Source of the DNA: Qingshengfaniella alkalisoli
Lineage (GTDB): Bacteria > Pseudomonadota > Alphaproteobacteria > Rhodobacterales > Rhodobacteraceae
Length of the DNA stretch: 64,000 nucleotides
Direction of reading: 5' to 3'
Assembly (NCBI RefSeq): GCF_007855645.1
Contig: NZ_CP042262.1
Span: 62,001 to 126,000, forward strand
The notes under the pieces were generated by a model, which saw only the letters and a list, made by a program, of their open reading frames with translations, was not told the origin of the DNA and did not search any database. How positions within the stretch are numbered: position 1 is the stretch's first letter; each line of letters opens with the position of its first letter. This document shows, piece by piece, positions 14,681 through 32,945 of the stretch. The translations under genes and the position numbers were made by a program.

Positions 14681-15460
14681 CTAAAGTTCGTTCAGTATTT
14701 TCTTGTGATATCTTCTCAAGAAAAAAATACCCACGGTCATTGGAAAAATAGCAAAACACATGGCATATTCCACGGAAACGTAATCGCCAATATATTCAGG
14801 GTATACACCTTGCCGCATTTTTCCAACAACGTGGATAAGCGGATTGTACCATAAGTATTGGGCATACTTCTCAGGAATCTGATCAAAAGTAAAAAATATG
14901 CCAGAGGCAAGAAACGCGGGACGATTTACAATTCCCCAGACCTGAGACCAAACCGGGTATAATGAAAAAAGAAGACAATTCAGGGATCCAACGCCAAGCC
15001 CAATCATCAGTGCCAGCACCAATGCGGTGGCGACCTCAGTGTAGTTAAGCATAAGCGGAAGATCATACAGCAAAAATATGCCTGCAAAAACAACAGTCGC
15101 AACGACGATTTGTATCAGTGCGTTCAGCAAGAAACGAGCGAGAACCGCGTCAAGATAGGTGACTCTAGGGTAAATAAGAAGTTGCCGCGAGAACGTGACT
15201 GCCTTTGAGACCTTGTTTTGGGTGGAAGTATACATCAGGAACGGAACGAGTCCGGAAGCATAAAACAAAGGAAAGCTTGTTCCGATCGCGGGCGTCCGCG
15301 AAATGGCGCTGAATGCTAGCGTAAGAAGTGTAATGCCCGCCGCTGGCTCCAGAATCGCCCAGATATAACCACCAGGCGAGCGACCGTAGGTCGTTGACAT
15401 CTCCCGCAACATCAATGCGACGATGACACGAATTGTACGCATATCCCAGATCGCTGTCAT
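14681..15460 (-). CDS. ABC-2 type polysaccharide export permease (KpsM/Wzm-like)
   Basis: The 259-residue protein has six predicted membrane segments. The ABC-2 features MLREMSTTYGRSPGGYIWAI near the N-terminus and YNPLIHVVGKMRQGVYPEY before the last helix are characteristic of KpsM/Wzm capsule exporters. The protein would form the inner-membrane channel that exports a lipid-linked polysaccharide, with an ATPase partner (KpsT/Wzt). No ATPase gene and no periplasmic or outer-membrane partner is in the window, so they must lie elsewhere. It is less GC-rich than parB or galE. It diverges from the KpsC-like gene across a 220-bp gap. Confidence 0.88.
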   Translation of the reverse strand: MTAIWDMRTIRVIVALMLREMSTTYGRSPGGYIWAILEPAAGITLLTLAFSAISRTPAIGTSFPLFYASGLVPFLMYTSTQNKVSKAVTFSRQLLIYPRVTYLDAVLARFLLNALIQIVVATVVFAGIFLLYDLPLMLNYTEVATALVLALMIGLGVGSLNCLLFSLYPVWSQVWGIVNRPAFLASGIFFTFDQIPEKYAQYLWYNPLIHVVGKMRQGVYPEYIGDYVSVEYAMCFAIFPMTVGIFFLRRYHKKILNEL

Positions 15461-15680: not shown

Positions 15681-16865
15681 TTGAGATTACGAGGGCAAAC
15701 AAGACTCGAAAACGTTCTAAAGCGATGGCATCATAAGCATGATCTGCGCAGATGGTGCTCCTTTCTTGCTACGCAGCAGCATTCGATTCAATCGCGCGAC
15801 ATTCGGGATTATGTTCTGAGCATTCAAGGGTGCCGTATTTCCATCGGATACCCCAGAAACAATCTCTCGCGTACATATGCCCGCGAGATGACGCGGCTTT
15901 TTCCGAATCTGTTAGTCTATGATCGTGACGGGGCAGCTTGGCGGGCTTCGGACAAGTTCCTAACGACCGGTGCGATCCACGACCGTTCTGGACCCTCGCA
16001 TGCGGGACTTGGGCGTATCCTGCGTGCCAAGGGAGAGAAGGCGGAAATCATACTCTTCGAACAAGGTTTTCTGGCATCCGCATATAGCTGGATCGAGTCT
16101 TATCGCGATCACCGCCCAGAAGCCGCCTGTCTTGGCTATGTCTATGACGACATTGCCCACTACTACATGGCGGAGTATCCGAATCGATTGATAGAGCGTC
16201 TTAATGGCCCGCAGGAACTGACGGCCGATGAGACGAAGCGCGCCCAAAGTGCGATGAATCGAATACGGGACAGGCGGATATCAAAGTATAATTCGCAGCC
16301 ATTAGCCGCTCCATCACTAGGGAACGCAGAGCGGCGTAAGGTTCTCGTTTGCGATCAATCCTTTGCGGACGCATCTACCGTTTACGGACTTATTGATGAA
16401 ACGGGTTTTGAGGAGATGTTGGCTGCTGCTGTTCGCGAGAACGCTGACGCAGATATTCTGGTCAAGACGCATCCCGATACTGCATCGCGGCCGAAAGGGA
16501 GGGCGGGTTACTTCAGCCACCTTTCGGATCATGGCCGCGTCAGGATTCTACGCGACCCTATAAACCCCTACGCCCTGTTCGAGCATGTCGATACGGTCTA
16601 TGTTGGGACCAGCGGCATGGGGTTGGAGGCGCTGTTTGCGGGCAAGCGCGTCGTCTGCTTTGGCGCGCCTTTCTACGCGGGGTGGGGCCTCACGGATGAC
16701 CGGCGTGAGATACCGCACCGCCATCGTTCCCGCAGCCTCGAAGACATATTTCACGCGTTTTATATCTGGTACACGATCTATCATGTGCCGGGCGCACCCG
16801 TGCCCTCACGCATCGAGGATGCCCTCGATTACATCGAAAAGTACAGGCCCGTCAAAGCCGTATAG
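15681..16865 (+). CDS. KpsC-like capsule glycosyltransferase, single module
   Basis: The protein is 394 residues, read from TTG at 15681; no in-frame ATG exists before the conserved region, so the start is uncertain. It matches the capsule synthesis family that contains KpsC (beta-Kdo transferases). The features are FEQGFLASAYSW, VLVCDQSFADASTVYG, ILVKTHPD, and the hallmark GLEALFAGKRVVCFGAPFYAGWGL. E. coli KpsC has two such modules (~675 aa); here there is one. Such enzymes build the Kdo linker on the capsule lipid terminus or act as Kdo-adding polymerase modules. Its last ~310 bp are nearly identical, in inverted orientation, to the middle of the neighbouring 1261-residue gene. Confidence 0.8.
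   Translation: MRLRGQTRLENVLKRWHHKHDLRRWCSFLATQQHSIQSRDIRDYVLSIQGCRISIGYPRNNLSRTYAREMTRLFPNLLVYDRDGAAWRASDKFLTTGAIHDRSGPSHAGLGRILRAKGEKAEIILFEQGFLASAYSWIESYRDHRPEAACLGYVYDDIAHYYMAEYPNRLIERLNGPQELTADETKRAQSAMNRIRDRRISKYNSQPLAAPSLGNAERRKVLVCDQSFADASTVYGLIDETGFEEMLAAAVRENADADILVKTHPDTASRPKGRAGYFSHLSDHGRVRILRDPINPYALFEHVDTVYVGTSGMGLEALFAGKRVVCFGAPFYAGWGLTDDRREIPHRHRSRSLEDIFHAFYIWYTIYHVPGAPVPSRIEDALDYIEKYRPVKAV
16518..16829. repeat. Near-identical inverted repeat, left arm (right arm 19549-19860)
   Basis: About 312 bp at 16518-16829 match the reverse complement of 19549-19860 with only a few mismatches. Both arms encode the donor-binding half of the KpsC-like module (from HLSDHGRVRILRDP to VPSRIEDALD). 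Flanking coding sequence on both sides is much more divergent, which points to recent gene conversion or duplication. Confidence 0.85.
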
Positions 16866-16869
16866 GACG

Positions 16870-19800
16870 CTAGCCCTGCTCTCCCGATTTACGCGCTTCA
16901 CCGATCGGAAACATCAGGCGCCCGATGATGCGCATCGTGCGCCGCGGATGTGTTCGGAAGTAGAGAATCGGGGACTTTCGGAGTCTGCTGAGAGCTCGAT
17001 CGCCACGTGTCTTGCCTAAAGCTCGTTCAATGGGGGGCACCCAAAATGCAAAGATATTCGCCGGCCCATAAATGTTACCTTGCGGATAGATATAACGCGC
17101 AGCCTTGCGCTGCCGCTCGAGCCGCATGTTGTGCAAGAACGTGGCCGGGTCCCTGTCGAACTCACGAATGAGGTCAGGAGATGCTCGCGAGACAAGTCGG
17201 CGGCGAACAAATGGCGTAAGCGCCCAGAGGCGCCAGCCGAACAAACCATAGTTCACGATTGCAGGAGATGAACCTAGCTGGTTTGTGCGTCCCGTCCCCT
17301 CGTCCAACATGCCGCTTCCGTGTCTCCGGTATCCTTCCGCGATAATCTCGAGCTCTGCGCTGTAAAGAGGTATCGGTGCGGAAGTAGCTGTAGGCGGCGA
17401 GGATAAAAACAGGATGCCGTCTGTGCGTCCGAGATAGCGCCGGGCAATCTCGGCATTGCAGTTCTGCGCGGTATCTAGAATTCGGGTCCGCGTGTGGATG
17501 TCCAATAGGTCAGGCTTTGGCATTTCATGACCGTTGCGCTTGCGCCAGTCTTGGAGTTGGTCCGCCACATCTTGAATGAAAGAAAAGTAAGCATCACGAC
17601 TTGGAAATGGCAGGCTATTAAAGAAGCGCAGTACCTCGATGTGAGCCGAGGAAAGCGCACCGTAGTTGCGCTGCCGGGAATCTGGGCGCGGCAATTCGGA
17701 CAAATCCGGTAATCCTGCCGCTTCGACGAAATCCTTAAGGAGGTCTCCCTCCAATAGTTGTGTGGGCTCGTAAACTCGAACATGGACATGGTCCCGCCCA
17801 ACCGCATGCTCCCATCGTCCGAGAATTTGGCGATAATCCAGCAGATCACGGGTTTTTGGCGCCGCTAGCCAATCTGTGACTGATGCCGAAACGCGGTTTA
17901 CAGCACCTCCGGCAACAAATTCGGCGTATTGCGAATTGGCCCAGTCGTCCTGGCGCCGTAGATAGACCACCATTTCCACGTCATATCCGACGAAGTACTG
18001 TGCCAAAAGGTGTGCATTAGGGTTCAGAAAAAACGCCTCGCTCGACAGCACAATGGTCTTGACCCGGCCCTGCATGAGCGACACGCCTGAGGAGATATAA
18101 TTCAGAAGATCGGGATCTTCGTTGATAGCAGATGTAGCAAACTGCGCGTGCCCAGCTTGTTTGTGACTGCGACCGGATTGCCAGAAGAGGCCGACTTCGG
18201 GATACCAGACGCCCTTGCGCAGTAGTTCGGGACGGTTTTGCTCCATCAGATGCTGCAGATAGGTGCTTCCAGTCTTGGTGACGCCGATGTGGATGACAAC
18301 CCTTGGTTTGGGTCCGTTCCACTCCTTGGCATCAGAGCGGCGTACACGGTCGTTGCGCGCATAAAGCGATAGCGCATCGGCGAGCGCACGTTCGCGCGGC
18401 GTCGGCGCATCCTTAAGAAACTCTAGGTAGAGTTGGGATTGAGCGATAGGCTTGAGGTGCCGAGCGGCATCGATGAGATCAGGGCGCTTGGACAGTATGC
18501 TCTCAAATAGAAGGCCATAGGCATGAGCATCTTTATGAGCGGCGGAAAGCTGGGTGGGCATGTCGCTCAAATCACTAGCGCGCAAGCCGGTTCCTTCTAG
18601 AACCTGTTTCAGGCCCTCAAAGAACTCGTCCTCAAAATCAGAGTCTTCGGTGGCGAGAACTGTTTTGTACGCAAAGCCCCAAAATAGATAGTGCAGGAAC
18701 TGCGCCACCTGAAAGGTTGCCGTCGCAAAGAGGTCAGAGCTTCTATCAAACGCGCCCTTATCGTGCAGCAGTGAGACGACCGTTCGGAAGTTATTGAATT
18801 GATCAGTTACGTCCGAGCGAGACTGGGCCCGCCGAACTGCTGAATCCGGCCGGATTCTGTAGACGACCGACGCGCTGTCGAGCGACGAAATTCTGTCGGT
18901 GGATAGCAGTGCCTTGAGCAAGAACGCCCGTTCTTCACGGTAGGTTGTAATGAATCGGATATCGTTTTCTTGTAAAAATTCCCGGCGATAGGTCCAATTC
19001 CAGAAATGGCGACTGTGAAGAATTTCCGGCCTTGAGGTAAGGCTTTGCATCGCAAAGGGTTCGTTAAAATAGGTTTCGACTTTGTCCTGGCGTCGCCCCG
19101 TAATGGTACCGTCTTCATTTTCTAGTTGTTCATAGGCTTTCCGGCCTCGGATCATGTCAGGGAGGTCATTGGCGATGGCTTCATTCACAGCATCAAAATG
19201 ATGCCGGGAAGGCATATAGTCATCGGGGTCTATGAAGTGGATGTAAGTGCCGCGGGCGGCGTCAAGTCCTCTATTGCGTGCAAATCCCGGGCCAACATTC
19301 TCGGGTAGTTCCAGAATACGAATGCGCGGGTCATGCTCCGCTAATTCTTCAAGAATCACCTGGCTGCGATCCTCGCTTTTGTCGACAACCGCGATAATCT
19401 CAAAATCCTTGAAGGTCTGCGCCTGAATCGAAGTGATACACTCCCGGATATATTTTTCGACATTGTAAACGGGAACAATAACCGAGATTGTTGGAACGTG
19501 CCCCTCCGCCGCAGCTGGTAGCGCGACGGGTCTGTACTTCTCAATGTAGTCGAGGGCATCCTCGATGCGTGAGGGCACGGGTGCGCCCGGCACATGATAG
19601 ATCGTGTACCAGATATAAAACGCGTGAAATATGTCTTCGAGGCTGCGGGAGCGATGGCGATGCGGTATCTCGCGCCGGTCATCCGTGAGGCCCCACCCCG
19701 CGTAGAAAGGCGCGCCAAAGCAGACGACGCGCTTGCCCGCAAACAGCGCCTCCAACCCCATGCCGCTGGTCCCAACATAGACCGTATCGACATGCTCGAA

Positions 19801-20655
19801 CAGGGCGTAGGGGTTTATAGGGTCGCGTAGAATCCTGACGCGGCCATGATCCGAAAGGTGATTGTAGAACCCGGTACGCTTGCCATCGTTTACCCAGGTC
19901 ACATCGGGATGGGTTTTCACCCATATTTCAGCGTCGGGATTTTCCTCCACAGCGGTTGCGAGCATGTCCTTGAAGTCTTGTTCGGATGCGCGTCCGTAGA
20001 TTGTCGACGCGTCTGAGAAGTTCTGATCAACTACTAAGACACGGCGCGACGCTCCTGTAGTAGACAAAGCACCAGTCAATGGTTGAGAGTTGTATTTGGA
20101 GATCCGAGCACACACGATGCGCTCCATCAGTGCCGCAGCACGAGCTTGTTCAACTTCACTTAGTTCAATGTCGCCATTCAGCCGCTGGATCAATCGGTTA
20201 GGATAGTCTGCCATGTAGTAATGTGCAATGTCATCATAGACATAGCCAAGACAGGCCATCTCTGGATCGCGTTGTTGAATGGCTTGCGACCAGCTATGGC
20301 TTGAGGCAAGAAAGCCCATCTCGAAGAAAACTATTTCATCCCCGGGAGATGCGTTTTCTAGGGCTACTTGCGTGCTTTTGTGCGAAAGAGCCTCGTCTTC
20401 GACTACAGCGCCATAAAGAAGAACTCTTTTGCTTTGCGTAACGAAGCGATCATCTGCTGCAATGAGGTTTGGGAATAGAGCCGGCAAATTTGCAGAAAAT
20501 GCCGAACTGATATTCGCCCTTATGAATCCCACGCTCCACGGCGAAAATCTGTTCTCTATGATAAACGCATGCATGTCCCGATCTTCGGGAGTGCCTTTGC
20601 GCTTATCTTCGAGGAGACTAGTAAATTTCTTAAGCGCCGTCCTGTGCCGTGCCAT
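16870..20655 (-). CDS. Trimodular KpsC-like / GT2 / sulfotransferase fusion (copy A)
   Basis: This 1261-residue protein has three modules in order. Residues ~1-385 are a KpsC-like module: FFEMGFLASSHSWS, VLVVDQNFSDASTIYG, WVKTHPD, GLEALFAGKRVVCFGAPFYA. Residues ~388-720 are a GT2 module: ISVIVPVYNVEKYIRECI, AVVDKSEDRSQ, and FIDPDDYM with its acidic metal site. Residues ~785-1110 are a sulfotransferase module: the PAPS 5'-phosphosulfate loop HIGVTKTGSTYLQHLM and the 3'-phosphate site VVYLRRQDDWANSQYAEFV. The C-terminal tail resembles that of the 1272-residue paralogue, including FPIGEAR. A single chain could add Kdo-like and second sugars and sulfate the product. This is inferred from the domains. 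It ends four bases from the convergent single-module gene. Confidence 0.85.
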   Translation of the reverse strand: MARHRTALKKFTSLLEDKRKGTPEDRDMHAFIIENRFSPWSVGFIRANISSAFSANLPALFPNLIAADDRFVTQSKRVLLYGAVVEDEALSHKSTQVALENASPGDEIVFFEMGFLASSHSWSQAIQQRDPEMACLGYVYDDIAHYYMADYPNRLIQRLNGDIELSEVEQARAAALMERIVCARISKYNSQPLTGALSTTGASRRVLVVDQNFSDASTIYGRASEQDFKDMLATAVEENPDAEIWVKTHPDVTWVNDGKRTGFYNHLSDHGRVRILRDPINPYALFEHVDTVYVGTSGMGLEALFAGKRVVCFGAPFYAGWGLTDDRREIPHRHRSRSLEDIFHAFYIWYTIYHVPGAPVPSRIEDALDYIEKYRPVALPAAAEGHVPTISVIVPVYNVEKYIRECITSIQAQTFKDFEIIAVVDKSEDRSQVILEELAEHDPRIRILELPENVGPGFARNRGLDAARGTYIHFIDPDDYMPSRHHFDAVNEAIANDLPDMIRGRKAYEQLENEDGTITGRRQDKVETYFNEPFAMQSLTSRPEILHSRHFWNWTYRREFLQENDIRFITTYREERAFLLKALLSTDRISSLDSASVVYRIRPDSAVRRAQSRSDVTDQFNNFRTVVSLLHDKGAFDRSSDLFATATFQVAQFLHYLFWGFAYKTVLATEDSDFEDEFFEGLKQVLEGTGLRASDLSDMPTQLSAAHKDAHAYGLLFESILSKRPDLIDAARHLKPIAQSQLYLEFLKDAPTPRERALADALSLYARNDRVRRSDAKEWNGPKPRVVIHIGVTKTGSTYLQHLMEQNRPELLRKGVWYPEVGLFWQSGRSHKQAGHAQFATSAINEDPDLLNYISSGVSLMQGRVKTIVLSSEAFFLNPNAHLLAQYFVGYDVEMVVYLRRQDDWANSQYAEFVAGGAVNRVSASVTDWLAAPKTRDLLDYRQILGRWEHAVGRDHVHVRVYEPTQLLEGDLLKDFVEAAGLPDLSELPRPDSRQRNYGALSSAHIEVLRFFNSLPFPSRDAYFSFIQDVADQLQDWRKRNGHEMPKPDLLDIHTRTRILDTAQNCNAEIARRYLGRTDGILFLSSPPTATSAPIPLYSAELEIIAEGYRRHGSGMLDEGTGRTNQLGSSPAIVNYGLFGWRLWALTPFVRRRLVSRASPDLIREFDRDPATFLHNMRLERQRKAARYIYPQGNIYGPANIFAFWVPPIERALGKTRGDRALSRLRKSPILYFRTHPRRTMRIIGRLMFPIGEARKSGEQG

Positions 20656-20821
20656 AACGAAAAACGTCCTCGCCTTTTAATTATGCATCAGCGACAGCGC
20701 GCTGCTGTAAGTTTTTAATGCTTCTATAGGTAATTAATGGAATGTTCAATTGTGGCGGATCTCTGGTGTGCGAACTGAATAAGAGCCAAAGCTTGACCTG
20801 CTCCCCTTGAGGCTGCGTTTT

Positions 20822-20950
20822 TCAGTTAGCTCTGTTCAGGGTTTGGTTCTCTCTTGATCGTTGATAATACTCCCGCGTGGTGAGCCCGTCGAGACTCGAA
20901 TGCGGGCTGTGGTGCTCGCCAAAGTTCGACTGCAAAACTCGTAAGCGATT
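20822..20950 (-). pseudogene. IS3-family transposase remnant (C-terminal tail)
   Basis: The minus strand ends HSSLDGLTTREYYQRSRENQTLNRAN before TGA. This is the conserved tail after the DDE domain of IS3-family OrfB transposases. Only ~35 codons remain. Confidence 0.7.
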
Positions 20951-20996
20951 GATTTTGTTTGGCGGGTACTGCCTTTGTGTGACTACGCGACGGCTT

Positions 20997-21200
20997 TCAG
21001 GCGGGTTTTCGCAGGTTCGGGGCGTCGAACAGCTCCAATTGTTCCGGGGTAGTCGTTGAGATCCCATCAGGCGAGCGTTCACCAATTTTCGCGCTGTGGC
21101 GCTGTATGTGCGCGAGCATGTCGAGAGCAGTGCGTGGGCTTGCACTGTGCCCCTTGACCGGCGAAGCCGACCCTCGGCCAACCCGTCCGCGTCAAAGGCC
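20997..21200 (-). pseudogene. IS1634-type transposase remnant (C-terminal)
   Basis: The minus strand reads LDMLAHIQRH, then TTPEQLELFDAPNLRKPA before TGA at 20997. This is the same kind of C-terminus as in the plus-strand fragment ending at 22737, but divergent from it. It is a separate, older insertion. Confidence 0.6.
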
Positions 21201-21278
21201 ACGTTCCGGAAGGTCTCGACAAGAGGTAATGTTGCGCAAATCAGGTTCGAGGGTGAATGCGCCCTTTCCCGGCAGAGT

Positions 21279-21998
21279 TCAGGTGACGGCTTCGATTTTG
21301 GCCCTGCCGAGGGCCGAGAAGGTGTTCATGATTGCGATGCGGATGTGGATTTCGGCGGTTTGGCGAACGGACATGATCCTCTCACCGAAAAGTTTCAGGC
21401 AGTTCATCCTGGCCTCGACCCGGCTTCGGATATGGTATCGCGCCCATTTCTTCCAGAGCGCCCGGCCCAGGTGTCGGGTTGCACGCAGGATCTCGTTTCG
21501 CGCGAAGGCTGCGGGGCAGTCTTCCTTCCAGACGCGTCCGTTGCGGCGGATGGGTAGTGAGGGCATGACTGCCACGGGTTCGAAGGAATGCCCGAACGCA
21601 TCGACACCTCGCTCAAAGATCGCCCCATGACATCGGCGCGTGTCATAGGCGTCGTCGGCGGTGACGGTCTCGATCGTCTCGTCGGTCGGGATCTGTGCCA
21701 GCAGCTCCGGCAGCAGCGGGCTGTCGCCCTGACGGCTTGAGGTGAACTCGACCGCGCGAACGTCTCCCGTGCCGGCGTCCATGGCGATATGTACTTTCCG
21801 CCACTGCCTCCGGCGCGAGACTCCATGCTTGCGGGCCAGCCATTCACCGTCGCCACGGAACTTGATACCTGTGCTATTGATCAACAGGTTCTGCAGCCGC
21901 CCGGAGACGCGATACGGGATCTGCACCGCTATCCGCGCCTGACGTCGGCACAGGGTCGAGAAATCCGGCACCGGCCAGTCCGTCCAAATCTCGGCTTA
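21279..21998 (-). pseudogene. IS5-family transposase, N-terminally truncated
   Basis: From about 21998 the minus strand reads TDWPVPDFSTLCRRQARI, then GDGEWLARKHGVSRRRQWRK and HIAMDAGTGDVRAVEFTSSRQGDSPLLPELLAQIP. It continues VTADDAYDTRRCHGAIFERG and ends at a TGA at 21279. This is the DDE core of IS5-family transposases. The usual first ~80 residues are missing; a start at 21971 gives 230 residues. Plus-strand sequence of an IS1634-type gene adjoins its left end as transcribed, so either element may have cut the other. Confidence 0.82.
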
Positions 21999-21999
21999 A

Positions 22000-22737
22000 C
22001 TGTCGAACCCAAGGGGCTTGCCTTCGACGATGATGGCCTGGCCGAGGATACCTTCGCCGGGCATCGCCTGATCGTCGCCCATGATCAACTGCGCGCTGAA
22101 GAGCGATCAGGCCGGCGCAGGGCGCGCATCCGAGAGCTCGAAGATATGGCAGAGCGCATGGTGACGAAGCTTGATCGGCAAGATGACGGTGAGACCGCCC
22201 GCGGTCGTCGCGCTTCCGATCGTGGCGCCTACAGCCGGTTCACTCGCGCCGTCGCCGAAGCCGAACTGACCCGCTTCATCAAGCCCGACCTGCAAGCCGA
22301 CCGGTTCAGTTGGAGCCTCGACGAGGACGCCATCGCACGAGCGGAACTCTTCGACGGCAAACTCGCGCTGCTGACCAACGCGTCCGATCTGACGGCGACT
22401 GACGCCCTATCACGCTACAAGGCCCTGGCCGATATCGAGCGCGGCTTTCGCGTGCTGAAGTCCGACATAGAGATCGCCCCCGTCCACCACCGGCTGCCCG
22501 ACCGCATCCGCGCCCATGCCCTGATCTGCTTTCTCGCGCTGGTTGCTCTACCGCGTCATGCGCATGCGCCTGAAGGCAAAGGGGCATTCCGCAAGCCCCC
22601 GCACAGCACTCGACATGCTCGCGCGCATCCAGAAACACACCGCCCATGCGGGAAACCGCACCTTGCACGGCGTCAGCAGAACAACACCGGAACAACTCGA
22701 CCTCTTCGAAGCCATGGATCTCCCCAAACCCGCCTGA
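22000..22737 (+). pseudogene. IS1634-type transposase fragment with frameshift
   Basis: The frame reads AFDDDGLAEDTFAGHRLIVAHD, then ALSRYKALADIERGFRVLKSDIE and IRAHALICFLALV, the DDE-region pattern of IS1634-type transposases. Near 22540 the frame shifts by one base and continues LYRVMRMRLKAKGHS to TTPEQLDLFEAMDLPKPA. The N-terminal half is missing next to the IS5 fragment. The sequence after its stop (to ~22816) resembles 32940-33010, marking the right end of this IS type, and directly adjoins a cut KpsC-like gene. Confidence 0.75.
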
Positions 22738-22816
22738 CGGGCTTTGTTGTCACATTCTTGGCTAATCGGCCTTAACAATATCAATTGCTTAAGCGCTCTA
22801 CTGATGAACTTGGGGG

Positions 22817-23134
22817 GTGCGGATGTTGCGGGAACCGATCAACCCCTACTCGCTGTTCGACGAGGTCGACACCGTCTATGTCGGCACCAGCCAGGTGGGG
22901 CTGGAGGCGCTGATGGCGGGCAAGAAAGTGATGACCTTCGGCGCGCCCTTCTACGGCGGCTGGGGCCTGACCGACGACCGGCAGCCGATCCCGCACCGGC
23001 ACCGCCAGCGCAGCCTGGCCGAGATCTTCCACTATTTCTATGTATGGTACACGATCTACCACGTGCCCGGCTGCGCGGTGCCAAGCCGGATAGAGGATGC
23101 GCTTGATTTCATCGAGGCGAACAGGCCGGGGTGA
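22817..23134 (+). pseudogene. C-terminal fragment of another KpsC-like gene, cut by an IS
   Basis: Directly after the IS right end the frame reads VRMLREPINPYSLFDEVDTVYVG, GLEALMAGKKVMTFGAPFYG, and ends DALDFIEANRPG at a TGA. This corresponds to the donor-binding end of the KpsC-like module. It stops at the same module boundary as the 394-residue protein, so the parent was probably also single-module. The upstream ~280 residues are gone. Confidence 0.8.
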
Positions 23135-23164
23135 GCAGGAATGGTCCATCTTGTCCAAATGAAC

Positions 23165-24175
23165 TTATGCTTTCTTCAACGTAGTAAGCCTATCCTCCAA
23201 ATGCCTAATATATCTCACAAACATCTCAGCATCAACGGGCTTAGACAGATCACTTGCATCTACTGAAAATGCCGATTTCGAAAGAAAGGCCTTATCCAGA
23301 TTAAGGCTTTCCGACGCCCAATTAATGTCACTCTCTGCAGACCTAATCGCCATCTCATGACAATAGGCAGGAAGTCCGAACCTTTCCTTCTTCGGTAGTT
23401 CCATATTCCTAAGATGCCTTAGAATAATAAGGCCGTCCTTCCAATTAGATCTGAAGCGAACTTCATTTACAGCTGATGCTAGCCTAATTTGATCAACGGT
23501 CATAGAATCATTCTTCATATAAAGCTTGATATTTCTTGAAGAACTATCTTCACTCAAGATAGATAGGAAGTCAGATACTACATCCTCTCCGTGGAGAGTC
23601 TTCCTATAAAATGGACGAATATCGACATTCTCTCGTCCAAATGTCGAAATATACTTCTCAAAATACTCTCGATACCTAGGATAAGGCGGCAGATCTATAA
23701 CATCCGATATTGTCTTTAGCGACTGCCTTATCAGTTGTTGCGAAAAGCTGTTAGACCACTCAGCAACCGGCCTTATATACCCCACAACAGAAAACGACGT
23801 TGCGCCGCTGTCAACGAAGAACTTTCTCATCTCCGCGACTTCACTCTCGTGTAGAATGCATAGATCTTCGGCAGAAACTATCAGATTGAGATTCGATTTC
23901 TTTGCGCTCTGAATCTCTTCAAAAATGCGGTTCTGTGCAAACCTCTTGCCGAATCTCTTCCTTGGAATTCCTGCGGACGACTTGATTTCTTTATAGTATT
24001 TCATGTAGCTTTCGGATCCAAAGGCCGAAGATATGATGAAAGAGTGGTTTCTCTCATCAGACTGCAAATACCTCCATTTTTTCAACTGTACGCGCTTTTG
24101 AGCGAAGTCTAGCGTCGCTTGAATAGAGGATGATCCCGTCTTATGCTGCCCGATATGGAGCATTATCTTCGTCAT
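23165..24175 (-). CDS. Stand-alone sulfotransferase
   Basis: This 336-residue protein begins MTKIMLHIGQHKTGSSSIQATL. It has the 5'-phosphosulfate loop (K-T-G-S) and a 3'-phosphate site at SVVGYIRPVAEWSNSFSQQL (R followed by S after seven residues). It would transfer sulfate from PAPS to a carbohydrate in the cytoplasm. The gene is visibly AT-richer than its neighbours, with many AT-ending codons (AAA, ATA, TCT, GAT), which suggests recent transfer. It lies 74 bp downstream of the 1272-residue trimodular gene on the same strand and is probably expressed with it. Confidence 0.82.
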   Translation of the reverse strand: MTKIMLHIGQHKTGSSSIQATLDFAQKRVQLKKWRYLQSDERNHSFIISSAFGSESYMKYYKEIKSSAGIPRKRFGKRFAQNRIFEEIQSAKKSNLNLIVSAEDLCILHESEVAEMRKFFVDSGATSFSVVGYIRPVAEWSNSFSQQLIRQSLKTISDVIDLPPYPRYREYFEKYISTFGRENVDIRPFYRKTLHGEDVVSDFLSILSEDSSSRNIKLYMKNDSMTVDQIRLASAVNEVRFRSNWKDGLIILRHLRNMELPKKERFGLPAYCHEMAIRSAESDINWASESLNLDKAFLSKSAFSVDASDLSKPVDAEMFVRYIRHLEDRLTTLKKA

Positions 24176-24249
24176 GGTATTATCTCCGCTGGGCGATCAT
24201 GTCTATTTTTGGAATAGTGCCTGCGTGATCGCTTGATGTTTCTCTTTTG

Positions 24250-27200
24250 TTATCTTGATTTAGTTGTCGAATCGACGTTTCTGAGTTCACCCACCGGGAA
24301 CAGCACCCGTCCGATCGCGCGCGAGGCCGGGCGGTCGAGGGTTCGCATGAACAGCACCGGATCGGCCCGCAGCCGACTGACCGCGGCCTGGCCGCCCCGG
24401 GCATAGGCGAGGGGTTCGAGAAGGCGCTGACGCCGCCGGGGCTTGCGGGGTTCCGTCCTGGTCGGCTGCGGGTAGAGGAACCCCGCAAGCCCGGCATGCC
24501 GCCCGGCCCAGTTCTTGCGTGCATATTCGGCGGGTTCGGTCAGAAGGCGCGCCCGCGCCTTTTTCCAGCCGCGCCCCGCGTAGTACCAGCCGATGATCGG
24601 GGCGAGGACGTGCAACCGCCATCCGAGCACCCCGTAATCGACGATTCGCGGAGCGGCCTTCCGCTTAGGCGGCGGCGGAGCGGCCTTCCGCTTAGGCGGC
24701 GGCGGGGCGGCGGGCCTGGGCGGCGTGTGCCTGGCATAGGCGGCCCCCGCAACGGCAAGCTCCTCGGCATGAAGGACGCTTTCCGCCTCGTTCCGCGGCG
24801 TGGCCCCGAATAGCGGCGCGCCGTCGAAATAGTCCCGCGCAATGCGCTGATTGCCCGCTTCCCCCGCATCCATGATGCGCTCGGAAAGTTCCGGGGTGAC
24901 AAACCATGGGCCCGGCATGGCCAGTTCGCGCTTGCGCCGCCAGCCCTGAAGGGCCTGCGTCACCTCCTCGATGAAGCTGAAATAGGCATCCCGGCTGTGG
25001 AAGGGCATAGTGTTAAATTGCCGGATCATCTCGACATGAGCGGTGGAAAGGCGCGCGGAATTGGCCTTGGCGCCTTGGGGGCGGGGAAGCGCATGCAATT
25101 GCGGCAGATTCACCGTGTCGGCGAAATCCGTCAGGATATCCCAATCCTTGTCCTCGGACTTGCCATAGCGCCGCACGTGAATCCGGTCACGGTCAAGCAC
25201 GGTCTCCCACCGGGACAGAAGATCGTCGTAGTCGAGCCAGTCGCGGGTCTTCGGCTCCTGCAGCCAGTCTTCGAACGGTGCATTCACGCGTCCGACTGCC
25301 CCACCGGCCACGAACTCGGCATACTGCGAGTTCGCCCAGTTATCCTGACGCCGTAAATATACAACCATCTCACAGGGATAGTCGGAGAAATACCGGGCCA
25401 GCTTCTCGCTGTGCGGGTTCAGGAAGAATGCCTCGCTGGACAGCACGATCGTATGAATCTGCTTCCCGAGCAGGGCAAGGCCGGTCTCGATGTAGTTGTG
25501 CAAGTCCGCCTCATCGCGGACGGCGGCACGAGCAAAATCAGCATGTCCGGCTTGCTTATGTGGCCTGCTCTGCTGCCAGAAAAGCCCCACCTCGGGATAC
25601 CAGATGCCCTGGCGCAGCAGCGCGGGGCGGTTGTCCTCCATCAGGTGCTGAAGCGCCGTGCTGCCGGTCTTGGTCGCACCCAAGTGTAGGATGATCCGAG
25701 GTTTACTGGCAGGCGCCTTCGCCACCCGCGCGGGCGCGACATGGGTATTCCGGGCGTAGGTATTGAGCGCGGACTGGAATTCGCGCGCGATATCGTCTTG
25801 TGGCTCTTCCAAGAGCTCGGTGTAAAGTTTACCCTGCGGGACGCGCTTTCCGCCGGCGGCGATATCGACCCAGTCGTAACGGCGGGCGCGCAGGGCGGCG
25901 ATGATCAGCTTGTAAACGCCGGTACCAAACTTGGCTTTCTGGACTTGCCCAGGGGCGTCGGTCAATTCGGAGAGCTGGAAATCAACGGTGTCCAGCGCCC
26001 TTGACAACCGATCGAGGTACGGGACCCGATCCGGCACCTTGTCGCAGAGTGTCTTGTACCAAAACCCAAAGAACAGGAAATGGGTGAATTGGGAGACTTG
26101 GAAGGCCAAGTGCTGCCGCAGCGCGCCTTGACGTGTGTCAGCACCGTGGTCGGCTAACAGCTGAACGATACTCTCGAAGTTTTTTAGAAAATTTTCTACG
26201 TCTCCGATATTCTTTTCTCGTCGCGCCGTGGATGACTGACGAATCCGATACATGAAGGAAAGCTCATTGGTCAGAGTAATCGTTCCGGATTTCAGCAATG
26301 CATTGAGAAGAAATCCCCTCTCTTCCCATTGGCTCGTGATAAATTTCACACCTTCTCGCAGAAGAAAATCTCTTCTGTAAAGCCACAGGCAAAAGTGCCT
26401 GCTATGAAGAATTGTCAGATCATCCACGAAAGTGGTTGACGCTACGTATTCGTTGAAATTCTTTTCCGTTCGATCCTCCTCTATACGGATAAGCTGATCA
26501 TTTTCATCGAATATCGCCTCGCCAGCCTTCTTCGCCCGCGTCATATCGGCATCGTTTTTATCCGCCGCGCGCACAACATTTTCCAGAAACTCGGGATCGA
26601 CGAGCCAGTCGTCTGAATCAATGAACCAGATATACTCGCCCCTTGCCGCTTCCAGGCCCCGGTTGCGGGCGAAGCCTTGGCCGGCGTTCGTAGCCAAGAG
26701 GATTGGCCTGATCCGCGGGTCCTCCGCCGCCAACCGATCTATGATCTCTTGGCTGCCGTCGGGCGAGGCATCGTTGACGGGGATAATCTCGATCTCACGC
26801 AGGGTCTGGCGCTGGATCGAGGCGATACATTCCTCGATATATTTCTCCACCCCGTAGACCGGCAGGATCACCGAGACGCGCGGCGGAGCGGCAAGCTCGT
26901 CTTCCGTCGGCGGCAGCGCATAGGGGCGGTGCGTCTCGATATAATCGAGCACATCCTCGATTTGGCTTGGCGCGGGTTTTCCGGGCACCATGTAGATCGA
27001 GTACCAGACGTAGAAATAGTGGAATATCGACGCAAGATCGCGCTGACGGTGCCGGTGCGGGATTTCCTGCCGGTCGTCGGTCAGGCCCCAGCCGCCGTAG
27101 AAGGGCGCGCCGAAGGTCACCACCTTCTTGCCTGCCATCAGCGCCTCGAAACCCATCTGACTGGTGCCGACATATACGGTATCGACAAGGTCGAAGACGC

Positions 27201-28068
27201 TGTAGGGGTTCACCGGATCGCGCAGAATCCGGACCCGTCCGAAGGATTCAAGATGGGAATAATAACCAGCGCGCTTGCCCTTTTCCCAAGCGGTGTCGGG
27301 ATGGGACTTCACCCAGATCTCGGCATCGGGGTTTTCGCGGATGGCCGCGTAGAGCATCTTCTCGAAATCCGCGTCCCCCATTTTGCCATAGACGGTCGAG
27401 GCATCGGCATAGGCCTGGTCGCAGACCAGAACCCGGCGGGCATAATCCGAGGCCGGCACCGGCGGCGTCATGGGCTGGGCATTGTACTTGCTGATCCGCT
27501 GCGAGACGATGCGCTGCATTGCTTGGTCGGCGCGTGCCCGTTCCCTTTCCGTCGGTTCGTCTTCTCCGTTGAGTTTCCGGATCAGGCGATTGGGGTGGTC
27601 CGCCATGAAATAATGGCTGATGTCGTCATAGACATAGCCGAGGCAGGCATATTTCGGGTCGCCTTCCCGGAAGGAATGAGACCAGCTGTGGCTGGTCGCG
27701 AGGAAGGAGGACTCGAAAAAAAGGATTTCCCGGTCCTCCGGCATGATCTGCAGCGCCTCGACCGCGCCCCGGTGGGAATTCGTGGCTTCACGGTAGACCG
27801 TGCCAGAAAGCAGAAACCAGTCGCATTCGCCAAATCCCTTCTGGTCAAAGGACCGGTTCCGAGGAAATAGGCTCGGCAGGTTCGCCCCAAAACCGTTCTC
27901 CAGCGTGTCGGAAACATACCCGAACCCTACCTCTTCCTGCCGCTTCGATAGAACATACTCGCGGATATCTCGATCCGGCGCGGCATTGGCCGCTCCCTGC
28001 ATGGAAAGGAATTCGGCGAACCGAAAAAAAGCGGTCTGGTTATTCTTGTCCATGTCGTCCCTGCTCAA
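24250..28068 (-). CDS. Trimodular KpsC-like / GT2 / sulfotransferase fusion (copy B)
   Basis: The protein is 1272 residues from a TTG that overlaps the stop of the upstream gene (TTGA); ATG 28053 is an alternative. It has the same order as copy A. The KpsC-like module is at ~1-390 (VLVCDQAYADASTVYG, WVKSHPD, GFEALMAGKKVVTFGAPFYG). The GT2 module is at ~396-730 (VSVILPVYGVEKYIEECI, PVNDASPDGSQE, FIDSDDWL). The sulfotransferase module is at ~788-1110 (HLGATKTGSTALQHLM, MVVYLRRQDNWANSQYAEF). A proline/lysine linker made by a 27-bp tandem duplication follows, then the shared C-terminal tail (FPVGELR). It is more GC-rich than copy A, so the two were not freshly duplicated as wholes. It is coupled to the methyltransferase-GT4 gene. 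Confidence 0.85.
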   Translation of the reverse strand: MSRDDMDKNNQTAFFRFAEFLSMQGAANAAPDRDIREYVLSKRQEEVGFGYVSDTLENGFGANLPSLFPRNRSFDQKGFGECDWFLLSGTVYREATNSHRGAVEALQIMPEDREILFFESSFLATSHSWSHSFREGDPKYACLGYVYDDISHYFMADHPNRLIRKLNGEDEPTERERARADQAMQRIVSQRISKYNAQPMTPPVPASDYARRVLVCDQAYADASTVYGKMGDADFEKMLYAAIRENPDAEIWVKSHPDTAWEKGKRAGYYSHLESFGRVRILRDPVNPYSVFDLVDTVYVGTSQMGFEALMAGKKVVTFGAPFYGGWGLTDDRQEIPHRHRQRDLASIFHYFYVWYSIYMVPGKPAPSQIEDVLDYIETHRPYALPPTEDELAAPPRVSVILPVYGVEKYIEECIASIQRQTLREIEIIPVNDASPDGSQEIIDRLAAEDPRIRPILLATNAGQGFARNRGLEAARGEYIWFIDSDDWLVDPEFLENVVRAADKNDADMTRAKKAGEAIFDENDQLIRIEEDRTEKNFNEYVASTTFVDDLTILHSRHFCLWLYRRDFLLREGVKFITSQWEERGFLLNALLKSGTITLTNELSFMYRIRQSSTARREKNIGDVENFLKNFESIVQLLADHGADTRQGALRQHLAFQVSQFTHFLFFGFWYKTLCDKVPDRVPYLDRLSRALDTVDFQLSELTDAPGQVQKAKFGTGVYKLIIAALRARRYDWVDIAAGGKRVPQGKLYTELLEEPQDDIAREFQSALNTYARNTHVAPARVAKAPASKPRIILHLGATKTGSTALQHLMEDNRPALLRQGIWYPEVGLFWQQSRPHKQAGHADFARAAVRDEADLHNYIETGLALLGKQIHTIVLSSEAFFLNPHSEKLARYFSDYPCEMVVYLRRQDNWANSQYAEFVAGGAVGRVNAPFEDWLQEPKTRDWLDYDDLLSRWETVLDRDRIHVRRYGKSEDKDWDILTDFADTVNLPQLHALPRPQGAKANSARLSTAHVEMIRQFNTMPFHSRDAYFSFIEEVTQALQGWRRKRELAMPGPWFVTPELSERIMDAGEAGNQRIARDYFDGAPLFGATPRNEAESVLHAEELAVAGAAYARHTPPRPAAPPPPKRKAAPPPPKRKAAPRIVDYGVLGWRLHVLAPIIGWYYAGRGWKKARARLLTEPAEYARKNWAGRHAGLAGFLYPQPTRTEPRKPRRRQRLLEPLAYARGGQAAVSRLRADPVLFMRTLDRPASRAIGRVLFPVGELRNVDSTTKSR
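24651..24704. repeat. 27-bp perfect tandem duplication inside copy B
   Basis: Two identical 27-bp units (24651-24677 and 24678-24704) encode a repeated nine-residue block of the type AAPPPPKRK in the linker between the sulfotransferase module and the C-terminal tail. Confidence 0.85.
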
Positions 28069-29990
28069 TGGATGTTTTCTGCGGCGATGCGCAGCGGATC
28101 GCCAACCAACTCGGCAAGCCTGACGTTCAGAAGCTCGCGCTGACCTGCCCGGACTCTGACCGGACCGCGTTCCAGCGCCTCGGCGAACATCTCTTCCCAG
28201 GCTTTCGCGATGACCTCTTGGCTATAGAGCCGTTCGTAGCGCAGGCGCGAGGCGCGTCCCATCTGTGCCCGAAGCCCGGCATCGGCCATGATCCTGTGCA
28301 GCTCCTCGCCAAGCGACCCGACCTGCCGTCCGCCGCTTGCCAGAAAGCCGTTTTCGCCGGGAACGATCTGTTCGTTGACGCCGGAACAGACCGCGTAGCC
28401 GACCAGCGGCAGGCCATGCGCCATGGCCTCGCATGTCACCATCGGGAAGCCCTCCAGCGTCGAGGGCAGCACGAAGGCATGCGCGCTGGCATAAAGCGGA
28501 TAGGGATCGTCAACTTCACCCAGGAATTCGATCCGGTCGCCCAGGCCCAGCCCCTCGGCTCTTTCGGCAAGCGCTGCGCGCTCGGACCCGTCGCCGACTA
28601 TGCGCAGCATCCAGTCGGGATGATCCCCGGCCACCTGTGCAAAGGCCTCGATCAGGACGCGGACATTCTTGCGCGGCACCAGCCGGGCCACGCACAGCAG
28701 GTATTTCACCCCCTCCGCGCCGGGATCAGCCCGCTTGTCCGTATCGCGCACGGTGTTCGGCACGACGCGAATCCTGTCCTGATGCGATTTTCCCAACGTC
28801 TGGCGAAACCCCTCCGTCAGCAGATGGATGAGGGTCGCGCCGAAAAAGGCGATCTCGCGCTCCTCGGCGGAGAAGGTTCCGATCCAGTCGGGCATGCGCG
28901 GATCGATATGTTCCGACAGCACGATGGGAAGGCCGAGGCGATGCGCGCAGCGGACATAGCGCGAAAAGGTCCGGTTCATGTGCAGACCGACCAGCAGCTC
29001 GCGCCCCTCGGCGGCGACGATCATCGCCATCTGGTCGTCCACCCGCGCGTTCGCCCCTTCGGGCAGATGCACCAGGCGGATCGCTGGATCCAGCGGCCAG
29101 ACCGGCCGGCCCCGGGCGTCGTCGAAGGTGAAGATCACGACATCATGCCCGCGCGCCGCCATCGCATTCGCCATCATGTGGCCGACATTCTCGGTGCCAC
29201 CCCTGCTTTTCGTAATCCATGGCACGAAGAAACCCAGCCGCATGGACGGGATCGCCGGGGGCTGGGCCAGGGCCGCGCGCGGAACCGCGATCTCCTGCGG
29301 CGGCACGTGCCATTTCCAGTTCACGCTCTGCAGGTTGCCCTCGAACCCTTGGCGCGCCTTGAAGCCCTCGGGAAACGATCCAAGTTCGGTCAGCCTCTCG
29401 AGATCGCCATTCGCGAACCTCAGTTCGGACCGGGGTGGGGCCTCGCCACGGCCAACCTCGCCAAAGATGTTGTAACCATGTCGAACGAACCGGCCCGACC
29501 GCAGGTCGAACCCGGTCACCGCCAGCACATACATCAGGTTGCCGACGTTCCAGCCATTGCTGACATGGCCGCCGACAACAGTCGACTTTGCCGGCGGGAC
29601 GGTAACCAGCAGCAGGCCGTCTGGTTTCAGGACGCGCCGGATCTCGGCCAGAGCTCGGCCGGTATCCAGCACGTGCTCCAGAACATGCGCGCACCATACG
29701 ACATCAAAGCTCGCGTCCGGGAACAGGGTCATGTCGGTTACGTCGACATTCTCGTGCAGTTCGATCCCCTCCGGGAAGACCGCTTGGTCTGTGAGATAGG
29801 CGTCCACGTCGAACCCAGTCGCCGTCACATCCCACCCGGCGGCCAGAAAGGCGCGCGCGGCCAAGCCGGATCCGGTCCCGATGTCGAGCATCCGCTTGCC
29901 CGATCCATCTGGAAGCGCCGCGATGGCCTCCGCCAGGATGTCCGCCTGCCCGCGAATGAACGTGGTGACTTTACCATTGCTTTCAGTCAA
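28065..29990 (-). CDS. Methyltransferase-GT4 glycosyltransferase fusion
   Basis: The protein is ~641 residues from a TTG at 29990, which follows GAG-rich sequence. The frame stays open to an ATG at 30116, but that extra N-terminus looks non-coding. Residues ~30-190 are a class I SAM methyltransferase (KRMLDIGTGSGLAARAFLAAG, VWCAHVLEHV). The rest is a GT4 enzyme: FFVPWITKSRGGTENVG, LLCVARLVPRKNVRVLI, and the E-x7-E motif TLEGFPMVTCEAMAHGLPLV. Such fusions can cap or modify glycan chains by adding a sugar and a methyl group; that role is inferred. Its stop overlaps the start of trimodular copy B, so they form one operon with the downstream sulfotransferase. Confidence 0.82.
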   Translation of the reverse strand: MTESNGKVTTFIRGQADILAEAIAALPDGSGKRMLDIGTGSGLAARAFLAAGWDVTATGFDVDAYLTDQAVFPEGIELHENVDVTDMTLFPDASFDVVWCAHVLEHVLDTGRALAEIRRVLKPDGLLLVTVPPAKSTVVGGHVSNGWNVGNLMYVLAVTGFDLRSGRFVRHGYNIFGEVGRGEAPPRSELRFANGDLERLTELGSFPEGFKARQGFEGNLQSVNWKWHVPPQEIAVPRAALAQPPAIPSMRLGFFVPWITKSRGGTENVGHMMANAMAARGHDVVIFTFDDARGRPVWPLDPAIRLVHLPEGANARVDDQMAMIVAAEGRELLVGLHMNRTFSRYVRCAHRLGLPIVLSEHIDPRMPDWIGTFSAEEREIAFFGATLIHLLTEGFRQTLGKSHQDRIRVVPNTVRDTDKRADPGAEGVKYLLCVARLVPRKNVRVLIEAFAQVAGDHPDWMLRIVGDGSERAALAERAEGLGLGDRIEFLGEVDDPYPLYASAHAFVLPSTLEGFPMVTCEAMAHGLPLVGYAVCSGVNEQIVPGENGFLASGGRQVGSLGEELHRIMADAGLRAQMGRASRLRYERLYSQEVIAKAWEEMFAEALERGPVRVRAGQRELLNVRLAELVGDPLRIAAENIH

Positions 29991-30099
29991 GGTGTCGCTC
30001 TCACTCCCATTTAAAACATCTGTTCGACGGTCTCGACAACGTTCTGCCGGATAGTCCAGCAAACGTCCACACCTTCTGCCTGTTGACAATGAGGTAAAG

Positions 30100-30765
30100 T
30101 TGATGTGTTTGTGCAAGCTTGAACGGCTAGCGACGAGTGGCGCCTCGTGGATTTCGAACTCTTCTCAAAAAAACCAGATTGACCAGCTTCATTCTCTTTC
30201 ACATCCAGCGGAGATTGCGTCCGACAAAATTCGGGGTCCCAAGCAAGAGTGGGCCATAAAAGGACGTGTGTTATGTGGTGAATATACGTCAATCAACGGT
30301 GCATTTACCGCACGCGGGAGGGTATTAATAGGAAAGTATTGCGCATTTGGTAGATATGTCGCTCTCATTTCCGGAAATCACCGAACCGATCTCCCTAACC
30401 AGCAAATATGGCTAAATGAACGCTTTAGTTTCATTTCTGCAGGAGAGACAAGGGGTCCCGTGGAGATCGGCCACAATGTTTGGATTGGCGACAAAGTTAC
30501 TGTTCTGTCGGGCGTAAGGGTGGGGCACGGTGCCGTTATCGGTGCGGGAACGACGGTCACGAAATCCGTACCACCTTTCGCTATTGTCGCCGGGAGCCCG
30601 GCTCGCGAGATTCGGTACCGTTTTAGCCCGTCAGTGATCCGTCAAATGCTCGATCTGAGCTGGTGGGATTGGGACGATGAGCGAATTGCGCGGAACAGGG
30701 CTTTCTTCGAAACCTCGATTTCTCCGACAGATGAGATTGATTTGATGTCGATCGTCGTCGACTAA
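30100..30765 (+). CDS. Left-handed beta-helix acyltransferase (CatB/WbbJ type)
   Basis: The predicted protein is 221 residues; ATG 30103 is also possible, and the first ~60 residues are poorly conserved. Hexapeptide repeats form the beta-helix: VLIGKYCAFGRYVALIS, then GPVEIGHNVWIGDKVTVLSG and VGHGAVIGAGTTVTKSVP. The motif AIVAGSPAREIRYRF closes the domain as in CatB-like and sugar O-acetyltransferases. The catalytic histidine is probably in SGNHRTD. It likely O-acetylates a sugar of the surface glycan. It is divergent from the methyltransferase-GT4 gene and less GC-rich than that gene. Confidence 0.82.
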   Translation: MMCLCKLERLATSGASWISNSSQKNQIDQLHSLSHPAEIASDKIRGPKQEWAIKGRVLCGEYTSINGAFTARGRVLIGKYCAFGRYVALISGNHRTDLPNQQIWLNERFSFISAGETRGPVEIGHNVWIGDKVTVLSGVRVGHGAVIGAGTTVTKSVPPFAIVAGSPAREIRYRFSPSVIRQMLDLSWWDWDDERIARNRAFFETSISPTDEIDLMSIVVD

Positions 30766-32679: not shown

Positions 32680-32945
32680 TAGTTTCGATGTGCGTGGTGT
32701 GTCGCTGGATGCGCGCGAGCATGTCGAGGGGCAACTCGTGTGCTTGCTGAATGCCCCTTTGCCTTCAACCGCATGCGCATGATGCGATAGCGGACCAGCG
32801 CCAGTCCCCGTACAGCCCTGGATCTGCTCGCGCGCATCCAGAAACACATGTCCATGCGGGAAATCGTACCTTGCATGGCATCAGCAGAACAACACCGGAG
32901 CAACTCGACCTCTTCGAAGCCATGAACCGTCCCAGGCCCGCTTGA
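32680..32945. pseudogene. Two head-to-head IS1634-type transposase fragments
   Basis: On the minus strand (~32815-32680) the C-terminal pieces YRIMRMRLKAKGHS and LDMLARIQRHTTH are visible in two frames. On the plus strand (~32820-32945) HAGNRTLHGISRTTPEQLDLFEAMNRPRPA runs to a TGA. The bases after this stop to ~33015 resemble 22740-22816, marking the IS right end. Confidence 0.65.

Follow-up and report, generated by a model that had tools for sequence, protein, structure and literature searches.

Two paralogous proteins of Qingshengfaniella alkalisoli that join a KpsC-like, a GT2 and a sulfotransferase module are candidate sulfating capsule-type polymerases

To our knowledge, it is rarely known for bacterial sulfated polysaccharides which enzyme sulfates which residue. 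Single chains that combine a transferase of 3-deoxy-D-manno-oct-2-ulosonic acid (Kdo) with a second glycosyltransferase (GT) have been described for several capsules. As far as the available parts of the sources go, CsaA of Kingella kingae is an 811-amino-acid (aa) chain of a GalNAc transferase and a Kdo transferase that makes a disaccharide repeat (PMC5070880), KrkA of Escherichia coli K13 is a large single-chain capsule polymerase in which an N-terminal retaining Kdo transferase of family GT140 is joined to a ribosyltransferase (PMC12887879), and E. coli K6 has a dual-domain protein in which a GT107-like domain is fused to another GT, of family GT29 (PMC13171606). Sulfation of a capsule is described for Cobetia, with a separate sulfotransferase and genes for 3'-phosphoadenosine 5'-phosphosulfate (PAPS) beside the kps genes and with polymers that can hold both Kdo and sulfate (PMC11766843, available text). 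Here, we analysed a stretch of 64,000 nucleotides from Qingshengfaniella alkalisoli (class Alphaproteobacteria, family Rhodobacteraceae; contig NZ_CP042262.1, positions 62,001 to 126,000), called the window below, in which two open reading frames (ORFs) each join, in this order, a KpsC/GT107-like module, a GT2 module and a sulfotransferase module.

The original prediction, drawn from the letters of the window, had placed these three modules and a related C-terminal tail in each of two paralogous ORFs, and all of this was borne out. Both ORFs are open over ~3.8 kb each, the two proteins match nearly end to end at 47% identity and both carry the tail, and Pfam finds PF05159 (Capsule_synth; E 4.4e-34 in protein 1, 1.2e-30 in protein 2) as well as PF00535 (GT2; E 1.3e-31 and 1.2e-34). 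Together with profile matches in the PDB, this makes the KpsC-like and GT2 modules of both proteins secure at the level of sequence; the sulfotransferase was recognised from a structure model. No fusion of a glycosyltransferase with a sulfotransferase, or of KpsC-like, GT2 and sulfotransferase modules, is described among the literature matches listed, in a search that left most subscription papers outside. Among these matches the three-part chain is thus undescribed, in line with the original prediction, while bacterial capsule sulfotransferases are already known and Kdo transferase-GT fusions as such (CsaA, KrkA and K6) are not new in kind. CsaA resembles the trimodular proteins, likened by its description (PMC5070880) and not by sequence, in having a Kdo transferase and a second sugar transferase in one chain, a combination recognised here by sequence only; it differs in that its available description includes no sulfotransferase. 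KrkA has a phosphoribosyl transferase and a phosphatase, a Kdo transferase with negligible sequence similarity to KpsC and, in the available text, no sulfotransferase (PMC12887879), and the K6 protein has its GT29 partner and likewise no sulfotransferase in the text available (PMC13171606).

KpsC, the GT107 linker synthase of group 2 capsules, is the closest relative of module 1. A profile of six KpsC-like modules matched five KpsC chains in the PDB, four with E-values of 4e-59 to 3e-57 and one, 6mgd, with 4e-25. By sequence, we take 8fuw and 8fux to be the N-terminal module of E. coli KpsC (KpsC-N); 6mgb is presumably another KpsC N module and 6mgd a KpsC C module. The structure 6mgc is E. 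coli KpsC-N and, in the available part of the same source, Asp160 of a QxxxD motif is the nucleophile, a His the acid and Glu66 the base, the HP motif lies at the cytidine monophosphate (CMP) site, QxxxD, HP and SKYN are assigned to donor binding and the Asp nucleophile, and Trp42, Glu66 and Asp67 contact the acceptor and are absolutely conserved across all KpsC proteins, in the N and C modules alike (PMC10148158). The homology of module 1 to KpsC is clear only from about residue 140 on, which is the half that holds CMP and the nucleophile. QxxxD, HP and SKYN are kept in all nine modules of the trimodular-type clade, as is the Glu equivalent to the KpsC base. The string GLEALFAGKRVV, proposed earlier as the donor site, is conserved too, but the donor and nucleophile motifs are HP and QxxxD according to the available text of PMC10148158, and its assignment did not hold.

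The acceptor side differs. The residue after the base Glu is M, S, Q or A in the nine clade modules and the Asp of KpsC (Asp67) is found in none (0/9), whereas an Asp stands beside the base Glu in all 28 KpsC modules counted, which belong to 14 KpsC proteins. These 14 come from 13 of 19 relative loci, six loci having no frame that passed the motif filter, and from the E. coli plasmid protein L077; the classical KpsC proteins of Roseivivax jejudonensis and of a Celeribacter metagenome-assembled genome (MAG) were missed by the filter and lie outside the 28 modules. At the Trp42 position, at most Celeribacter shows a Trp among six aligned modules, the alignment of the acceptor half being unsure. 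In a midpoint-rooted tree of KpsC modules, the nine form a clade of their own (support 1.0) and 13 KpsC-N modules of relatives form a separate one (support 1.0), with the N module of L077 beside the KpsC-C modules. Each trimodular protein has a single KpsC-type match in place of the two modules of KpsC, with no tandem pair, and is further set apart from KpsC by its fused GT2 and sulfotransferase. The donor half of module 1 is, as read from these motifs, that of a retaining CMP-Kdo enzyme, and the acceptor half has lost a Kdo-holding residue of KpsC. Since donor and catalytic motifs are kept and the acceptor Asp is lost, module 1 is probably a beta-Kdo transferase with an acceptor other than that of KpsC. 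The earlier label, beta-Kdo transferase type, is thus strengthened for the donor by genomic context, because the single CTP_transf_3 match of the genome is KdsB (next to CysQ and, identified by eye, a GalU-like gene) and kpsF lies ~3 to 5 kb from a trimodular gene in three of the four other genomes (Cereibacter, R. jejudonensis and Roseivivax halodurans); it fails where it would imply simply the linker transferase KpsC.

Module 2 resembles wall teichoic acid glycosyltransferases. Modelled with its helical end, it aligns with TarS at Z 27.1 (326 residues aligned), TarP at Z 24.8 and RmlT at Z 23.8, and the fold likeness extends over the whole second module (Z 20.7-27.1) at an identity of only ~16-21%; by sequence, its match in the PDB is the structure of a putative galactosyltransferase, 5hea (E 1e-29). 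The DxD-type motif F(I/L)DxDD occurs in eight of nine proteins and reads LLDSDD in the ninth, RjejA. Module 3 was identified by structure comparison alone, because none of six members matched Pfam even at E 10 and the PDB sequences gave no real match. An AlphaFold2 model that covers the last 502 residues of protein 1 (mean pLDDT 63.5, 70-90 over much of the domain) found 3rnl with Foldseek (E 1.5e-4), and VIA-align placed NDST1 at Z 14.9 (root-mean-square deviation 3.9, 242 aligned), bacterial 3rnl at Z 14.4 and the heparan 3-O-sulfotransferase 3-OST-3 at Z 13.8, along with further sulfotransferases, above unrelated kinases (Z ~8). By this model, the module has a heparan-type sulfotransferase fold; we know of no glycosyltransferase fusion among NDST1, the heparan 3-O-sulfotransferases and 3rnl. 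KTG(S/T), SSE and RRQD occur in all nine module 3 sequences, in agreement with the PAPS-binding residues expected by the original prediction. We take KTG(S/T) to be the 5'-phosphosulfate loop, R-x7-S the 3'-phosphate motif and SSE to hold the catalytic Glu.

A search for the same architecture, suggested together with the prediction, recovered six further trimodular proteins with the same module order from four other genomes, and the order is therefore more than chance. In total, eight trimodular proteins and one KpsC-less version occur in five Rhodobacterales genomes; the window genome has two trimodular proteins and, as read from the surrounding contigs, R. jejudonensis has three and R. halodurans one beside the KpsC-less protein. 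An assembly error as the origin of the fusion was rejected in view of the eight proteins in five genomes, one of which lies on a complete plasmid record. The scan of the genome collection gave 38 loci with a relative. In three of these the match is longer: in the Celeribacter MAG and R. jejudonensis it takes in the KpsC, GT2 and sulfotransferase parts, and in R. halodurans the GT2 and sulfotransferase parts with the tail. In the plasmid scan, one of 1124 matching records, Cereibacter azotoformans pORIO1, covers at least 80% of the query; this homologue is annotated in its public record merely as 'glycosyltransferase'. In a set of 61 genomes of relatives, 23 gave a match at E 1e-30, which extended past the KpsC part in the window's own genome only. 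The start of the KpsC-less R. halodurans protein adjoins a stretch (L010 8300-9990) that resembles, by eye, an insertion sequence (IS) of the window at ~32.1-32.8 kb, and the protein may therefore be a truncated copy.

Motifs sort eight of the nine proteins into two types, with RjejA standing apart. Type A (EMGFLAS, FIDPDD, YREER) comprises protein 1 and the proteins Cereibacter, RhalA and RjejC; type B (FIDSDDW or FLDSDDF, QWEER) comprises protein 2, Celeribacter, RhalB and RjejB. By these motifs, the window genome, R. halodurans and R. jejudonensis each hold one A and one B. In the KpsC tree, protein 1 falls together with the rest of type A (0.867), and the GT2 tree unites the other three type A proteins (0.978) and the type B proteins (0.978). 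The sulfotransferase tree, in which protein 2 pairs with Cereibacter (0.876) and protein 1 with RhalB (0.828), disagrees with both, and modules therefore seem to have been exchanged between proteins, the tree supports being moderate.

We read the proteins as sulfating capsule-type polymerases because they combine a Kdo-type donor half, a second glycosyltransferase and a sulfotransferase, for which CsaA and KrkA are the nearest models. That each protein is a single-chain, KrkA/CsaA-like polymerase with a sulfotransferase added in cis is given a probability of about 0.5. Module 1 would bind Kdo, supplied as CMP-beta-Kdo, to an Asp (Asp222 in protein 2) as an intermediate and transfer it with retention to a sugar other than Kdo, Glu119 (protein 2) acting as the base; the TarS/TarP-like GT2 of module 2 would use a nucleotide sugar to extend the Kdo end by a second sugar; alternation of the two would build a Kdo-X repeat; the NDST/3-OST-like module 3 would sulfate the growing repeat from PAPS; and the chain would leave through a KpsM/KpsT/KpsE-type ABC exporter. 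The A and B paralogues would probably be responsible for different linkages within a single repeat, or for two polymers that are related. The sharper version, in which one polypeptide alternates Kdo and the second sugar, sulfates each repeat during growth and has complementary linkages divided between A and B, is put forward tentatively and seems to us somewhat less probable than even. Kdo as the donor, the nature of the second sugar, the position of the sulfate, and polymerisation in preference to single additions are all predicted, as is activity itself. The supply of both donors is represented in the genome by KdsB and by its one adenosine 5'-phosphosulfate-kinase match, in a Sat-CysC-like protein whose sulfurylase part was recognised by eye.

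Several observations weigh against this proposal. In module 1, the equivalent of Trp42 cannot be firmly placed in the acceptor-half alignment, and the AlphaFold model of the first 775 residues has a pLDDT below 50 over much of residues 1-160, the KpsC acceptor half, for which reason the acceptor-site residues were taken from the sequence alignment; KpsC structures are absent from the 50 structural matches listed for this model, a list filled by its GT2 half and so no argument against a KpsC fold. Lys202 of KpsC binds the carboxylate of an acceptor Kdo; its position is taken by Arg in 9/9 modules, and as a basic residue is usual there in KpsC too, this fits a Kdo acceptor as well. In module 2, the base position reads EER in 9/9 proteins, with EE instead of the usual GT2 base motif ED, and the GT2 tree puts protein 1 on the B side (0.707), contrary to its A-type motifs. 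Module 3 shares no more than 11-17% identity with the structures that it matches best, and RjejC has Ala for the Ser of the 3'-phosphate motif that 8/9 keep. KdsB and KpsF also serve lipopolysaccharide synthesis, kpsF was found neither in the window nor in the Celeribacter stretch L009, and the KpsE- and KpsT-like genes lie on contig 1, outside the window. The locus also carries IS elements and gene fragments, and a two-module KpsC was found neither in the window's genome nor in R. halodurans.

This last point bears on the alternative that the KpsC-like modules are anchor or transition transferases, which would synthesise the Kdo linker or carry out the first step from linker to polymer. The five PF05159 matches of the window's genome are accounted for by four in the window's own genes and fragment and by a 392-aa, weakly KpsS-like protein on contig 1, and the two in R. 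halodurans lie in frames of 1276 and 369 aa (in Cereibacter, only the plasmid was searched). Because R. halodurans, too, is without a two-module KpsC, this alternative was raised slightly and the polymerase reading lowered slightly; the adjoining KpsM permease and the basic Lys202 position count in the same direction. Yet the whole clade has lost the Asp with which KpsC binds its acceptor Kdo, and a linker enzyme has no obvious need for a sulfotransferase or for three paralogues within ~38 kb (R. jejudonensis). The Celeribacter MAG and R. jejudonensis hold a classical two-module KpsC (699-aa and 721-aa frames) alongside the fusion, which is therefore not its replacement there. On balance, a linker role is considered unlikely.

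A second alternative leaves the sugar transferases as they are and holds that the sulfotransferase module is no longer active, or has a free lipid, protein or other glycan as its acceptor, the fusion merely holding proteins together. The module family is widespread, being present in 44 of 100 family genomes, the window's own included, mostly in open frames below 470 aa, and its apparent exchange between proteins fits this view. The PAPS-loop and SSE motifs kept in all nine sequences speak against it, and so do GT2-sulfotransferase proteins of two modules, with no KpsC part, in Leisingera (L080 4983-7331) and L107, which point to a shared substrate; we consider an inactive or independent sulfotransferase distinctly unlikely. 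The use of another CMP-ulosonate (pseudaminic acid, legionaminic acid or a modified Kdo) by module 1 is less probable again. The CTP_transf_3 family would also catch synthetases of other CMP-ulosonates, and the only match in the genome is KdsB; kpsF, a Kdo-pathway gene, lies near homologues in three genomes. In the available text of PMC12887879, the KpsC relative KpsS1 of Acinetobacter is a pseudaminic acid transferase, which favours such a donor, but enzymes of this kind are argued there to suit an axial C5 substituent. Equally improbable is that the window copies are decaying relics on a plasmid, as the IS5 and IS110 transposases, the KpsC fragment, the gene conversion and an export set of which the window has only the permease might suggest, because both long ORFs are open with their catalytic motifs kept and the start of protein 2 overlaps the stop of the upstream gene, so that the two may be translated together.

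If the polymerase reading is right, a single enzyme may both build and sulfate a bacterial surface polymer, sulfation would be set during polymerisation, as opposed to its addition afterwards by separate enzymes as in heparan, and a polymerase that sulfates in one pot would be of practical use in making sulfated glycans. The fusion in any case ties the sulfotransferase to its two sugar transferases, which makes substrate and timing directly testable in one protein, and it adds a third GT107-related clade with the donor site kept and the acceptor site changed, which bears on how KpsC-type enzymes gained new acceptors.

Table 1. Features of the locus in window coordinates, with strand
Feature	Position	Strand	Details
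Trimodular protein 1	16870-20655	-	1261 aa, ATG start; A type by motifs (EMGFLAS, FIDPDDY, TYREER)
Protein 1, KpsC/GT107-like module	19528-20646	-	aa 4-376
Protein 1, GT2 module	18349-19500	-	aa 386-769
Protein 1, sulfotransferase module	17398-18312	-	aa 782-1086; KTGST, SSEAFF, YLRRQDDWANSQY
Protein 1, C-terminal tail	16873-17397	-	aa 1087-1261
Trimodular protein 2	24250-28068	-	1272 aa, TTG start as listed; B type by motifs (FIDSDDW, QWEER)
Protein 2, KpsC/GT107-like module	26923-28041	-	aa 10-382; E119 (predicted base), SKYN 193-196, Q218-D222 (QxxxD), H256-P257
Protein 2, GT2 module	25744-26889	-	aa 394-775; TarS/TarP-like fold
Protein 2, sulfotransferase module	24799-25707	-	aa 788-1090
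Protein 2, C-terminal tail	24262-24798	-	aa 1091-1269; includes Pro/Lys-rich stretch
GT4-type glycosyltransferase	12713-13813	+	Pfam
GT2-type glycosyltransferase	13279-14670	+	GT2 match starts at aa 183-184 of the open frame; start of the gene provisional
KpsM-type ABC-2 permease	14681-15460	-	47% to the Cereibacter one
Separate KpsC/GT107-like ORF	15681-16865	+	394 aa, TTG start as listed; convergent with protein 1
Near-identical tract	16506-16853	+	348 nt; inverted counterpart (97% identity) at 19525-19872 in protein 1
3' fragment of a further KpsC-like gene	22815-23127	+	81% to 26924-27236; beside IS5-type remnants
Separate sulfotransferase-like gene	23165-24175	-	74 nt downstream of protein 2; module profile E 1e-4; no Pfam match
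Methyltransferase-GT4 fusion	28065-30116	-	directly upstream of protein 2; Pfam
Hexapeptide-repeat acyltransferase-like protein	30100-30765	+	Pfam

The neighbours named by the original prediction, namely the separate sulfotransferase, the methyltransferase-GT4 fusion, the hexapeptide acyltransferase and the KpsM-type permease, are all present (Table 1). A sulfotransferase-like gene directly follows in the window and in R. jejudonensis, the two being 22% identical (E 1.5e-7), and a methyltransferase-GT4 homologue lies directly upstream in the Celeribacter MAG (48%), with the GT4 part alone in R. jejudonensis (55%). As listed, protein 2 starts at a TTG that overlaps the stop codon (TGA) of the methyltransferase-GT4 gene, with a Met further on at aa 6.

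The separate KpsC-like ORF, the KpsC fragment and the 348-nt inverted tract were not mentioned in the prediction. The separate ORF is 61% identical overall to the KpsC module of protein 1, and the tract forms the last part of its gene, within the donor half, with a further 93 nt upstream 84% identical; bins of 22-40% identity just before the tract are out of register through a one-codon gap and do not reflect divergence. As read from the alignment, the tract is a recent gene conversion or duplication. IS5-type and IS110-type transposases lie inside the cluster and next to it, at 21279-21971 and 30998-31705, with related repeats at 22556-22814 and 32765-33022.

The window belongs to contig 2 (448,990 bases) of a five-contig, 3.93-Mb genome. 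It is probably part of a plasmid, as suggested by a TraI/MobA-like relaxase match (1874-3658) and a RepB-like partition protein (10940-11944), both under the NCBI cut-offs; the window contains no tRNA, and positions 7000-34000 gave no match to Rfam. Elsewhere in the genome, CysQ, KdsB and the GalU-like gene lie side by side (L119 9261-11984), that is, 3'-phosphoadenosine 5'-phosphate recycling next to CMP-Kdo synthesis, and the KpsE-KpsT-like pair on contig 1 (L117 8514-10491) is near YjbH and YjbF genes of the group 4 capsule type.

Further observations concern the proteins and their relatives. In protein 2, a perfect tandem 27-nt duplication (24648-24701) yields a repeated Pro/Lys/Ala-rich linker, and the matching region of the Celeribacter homologue is a long Asn-Lys-Ala-Pro repeat. 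The three paralogues of R. jejudonensis lie on contig 9 (L140, L141 and L142), and RjejA (L140 12192-16940) ends, unlike the other tails, in a FDPxFYxxxYPDVAxAGxDPLxHFLxxG stretch. Long frames of 617-656 aa (L102, L111 and L116) carry the same sulfotransferase module beside unidentified parts, and a 1163-aa protein on a Paracoccus seriniphilus plasmid (L079 5562-9053) combines a different N-terminal part with a C-terminal one that is closely related to the GT2 module (E 2.9e-85).

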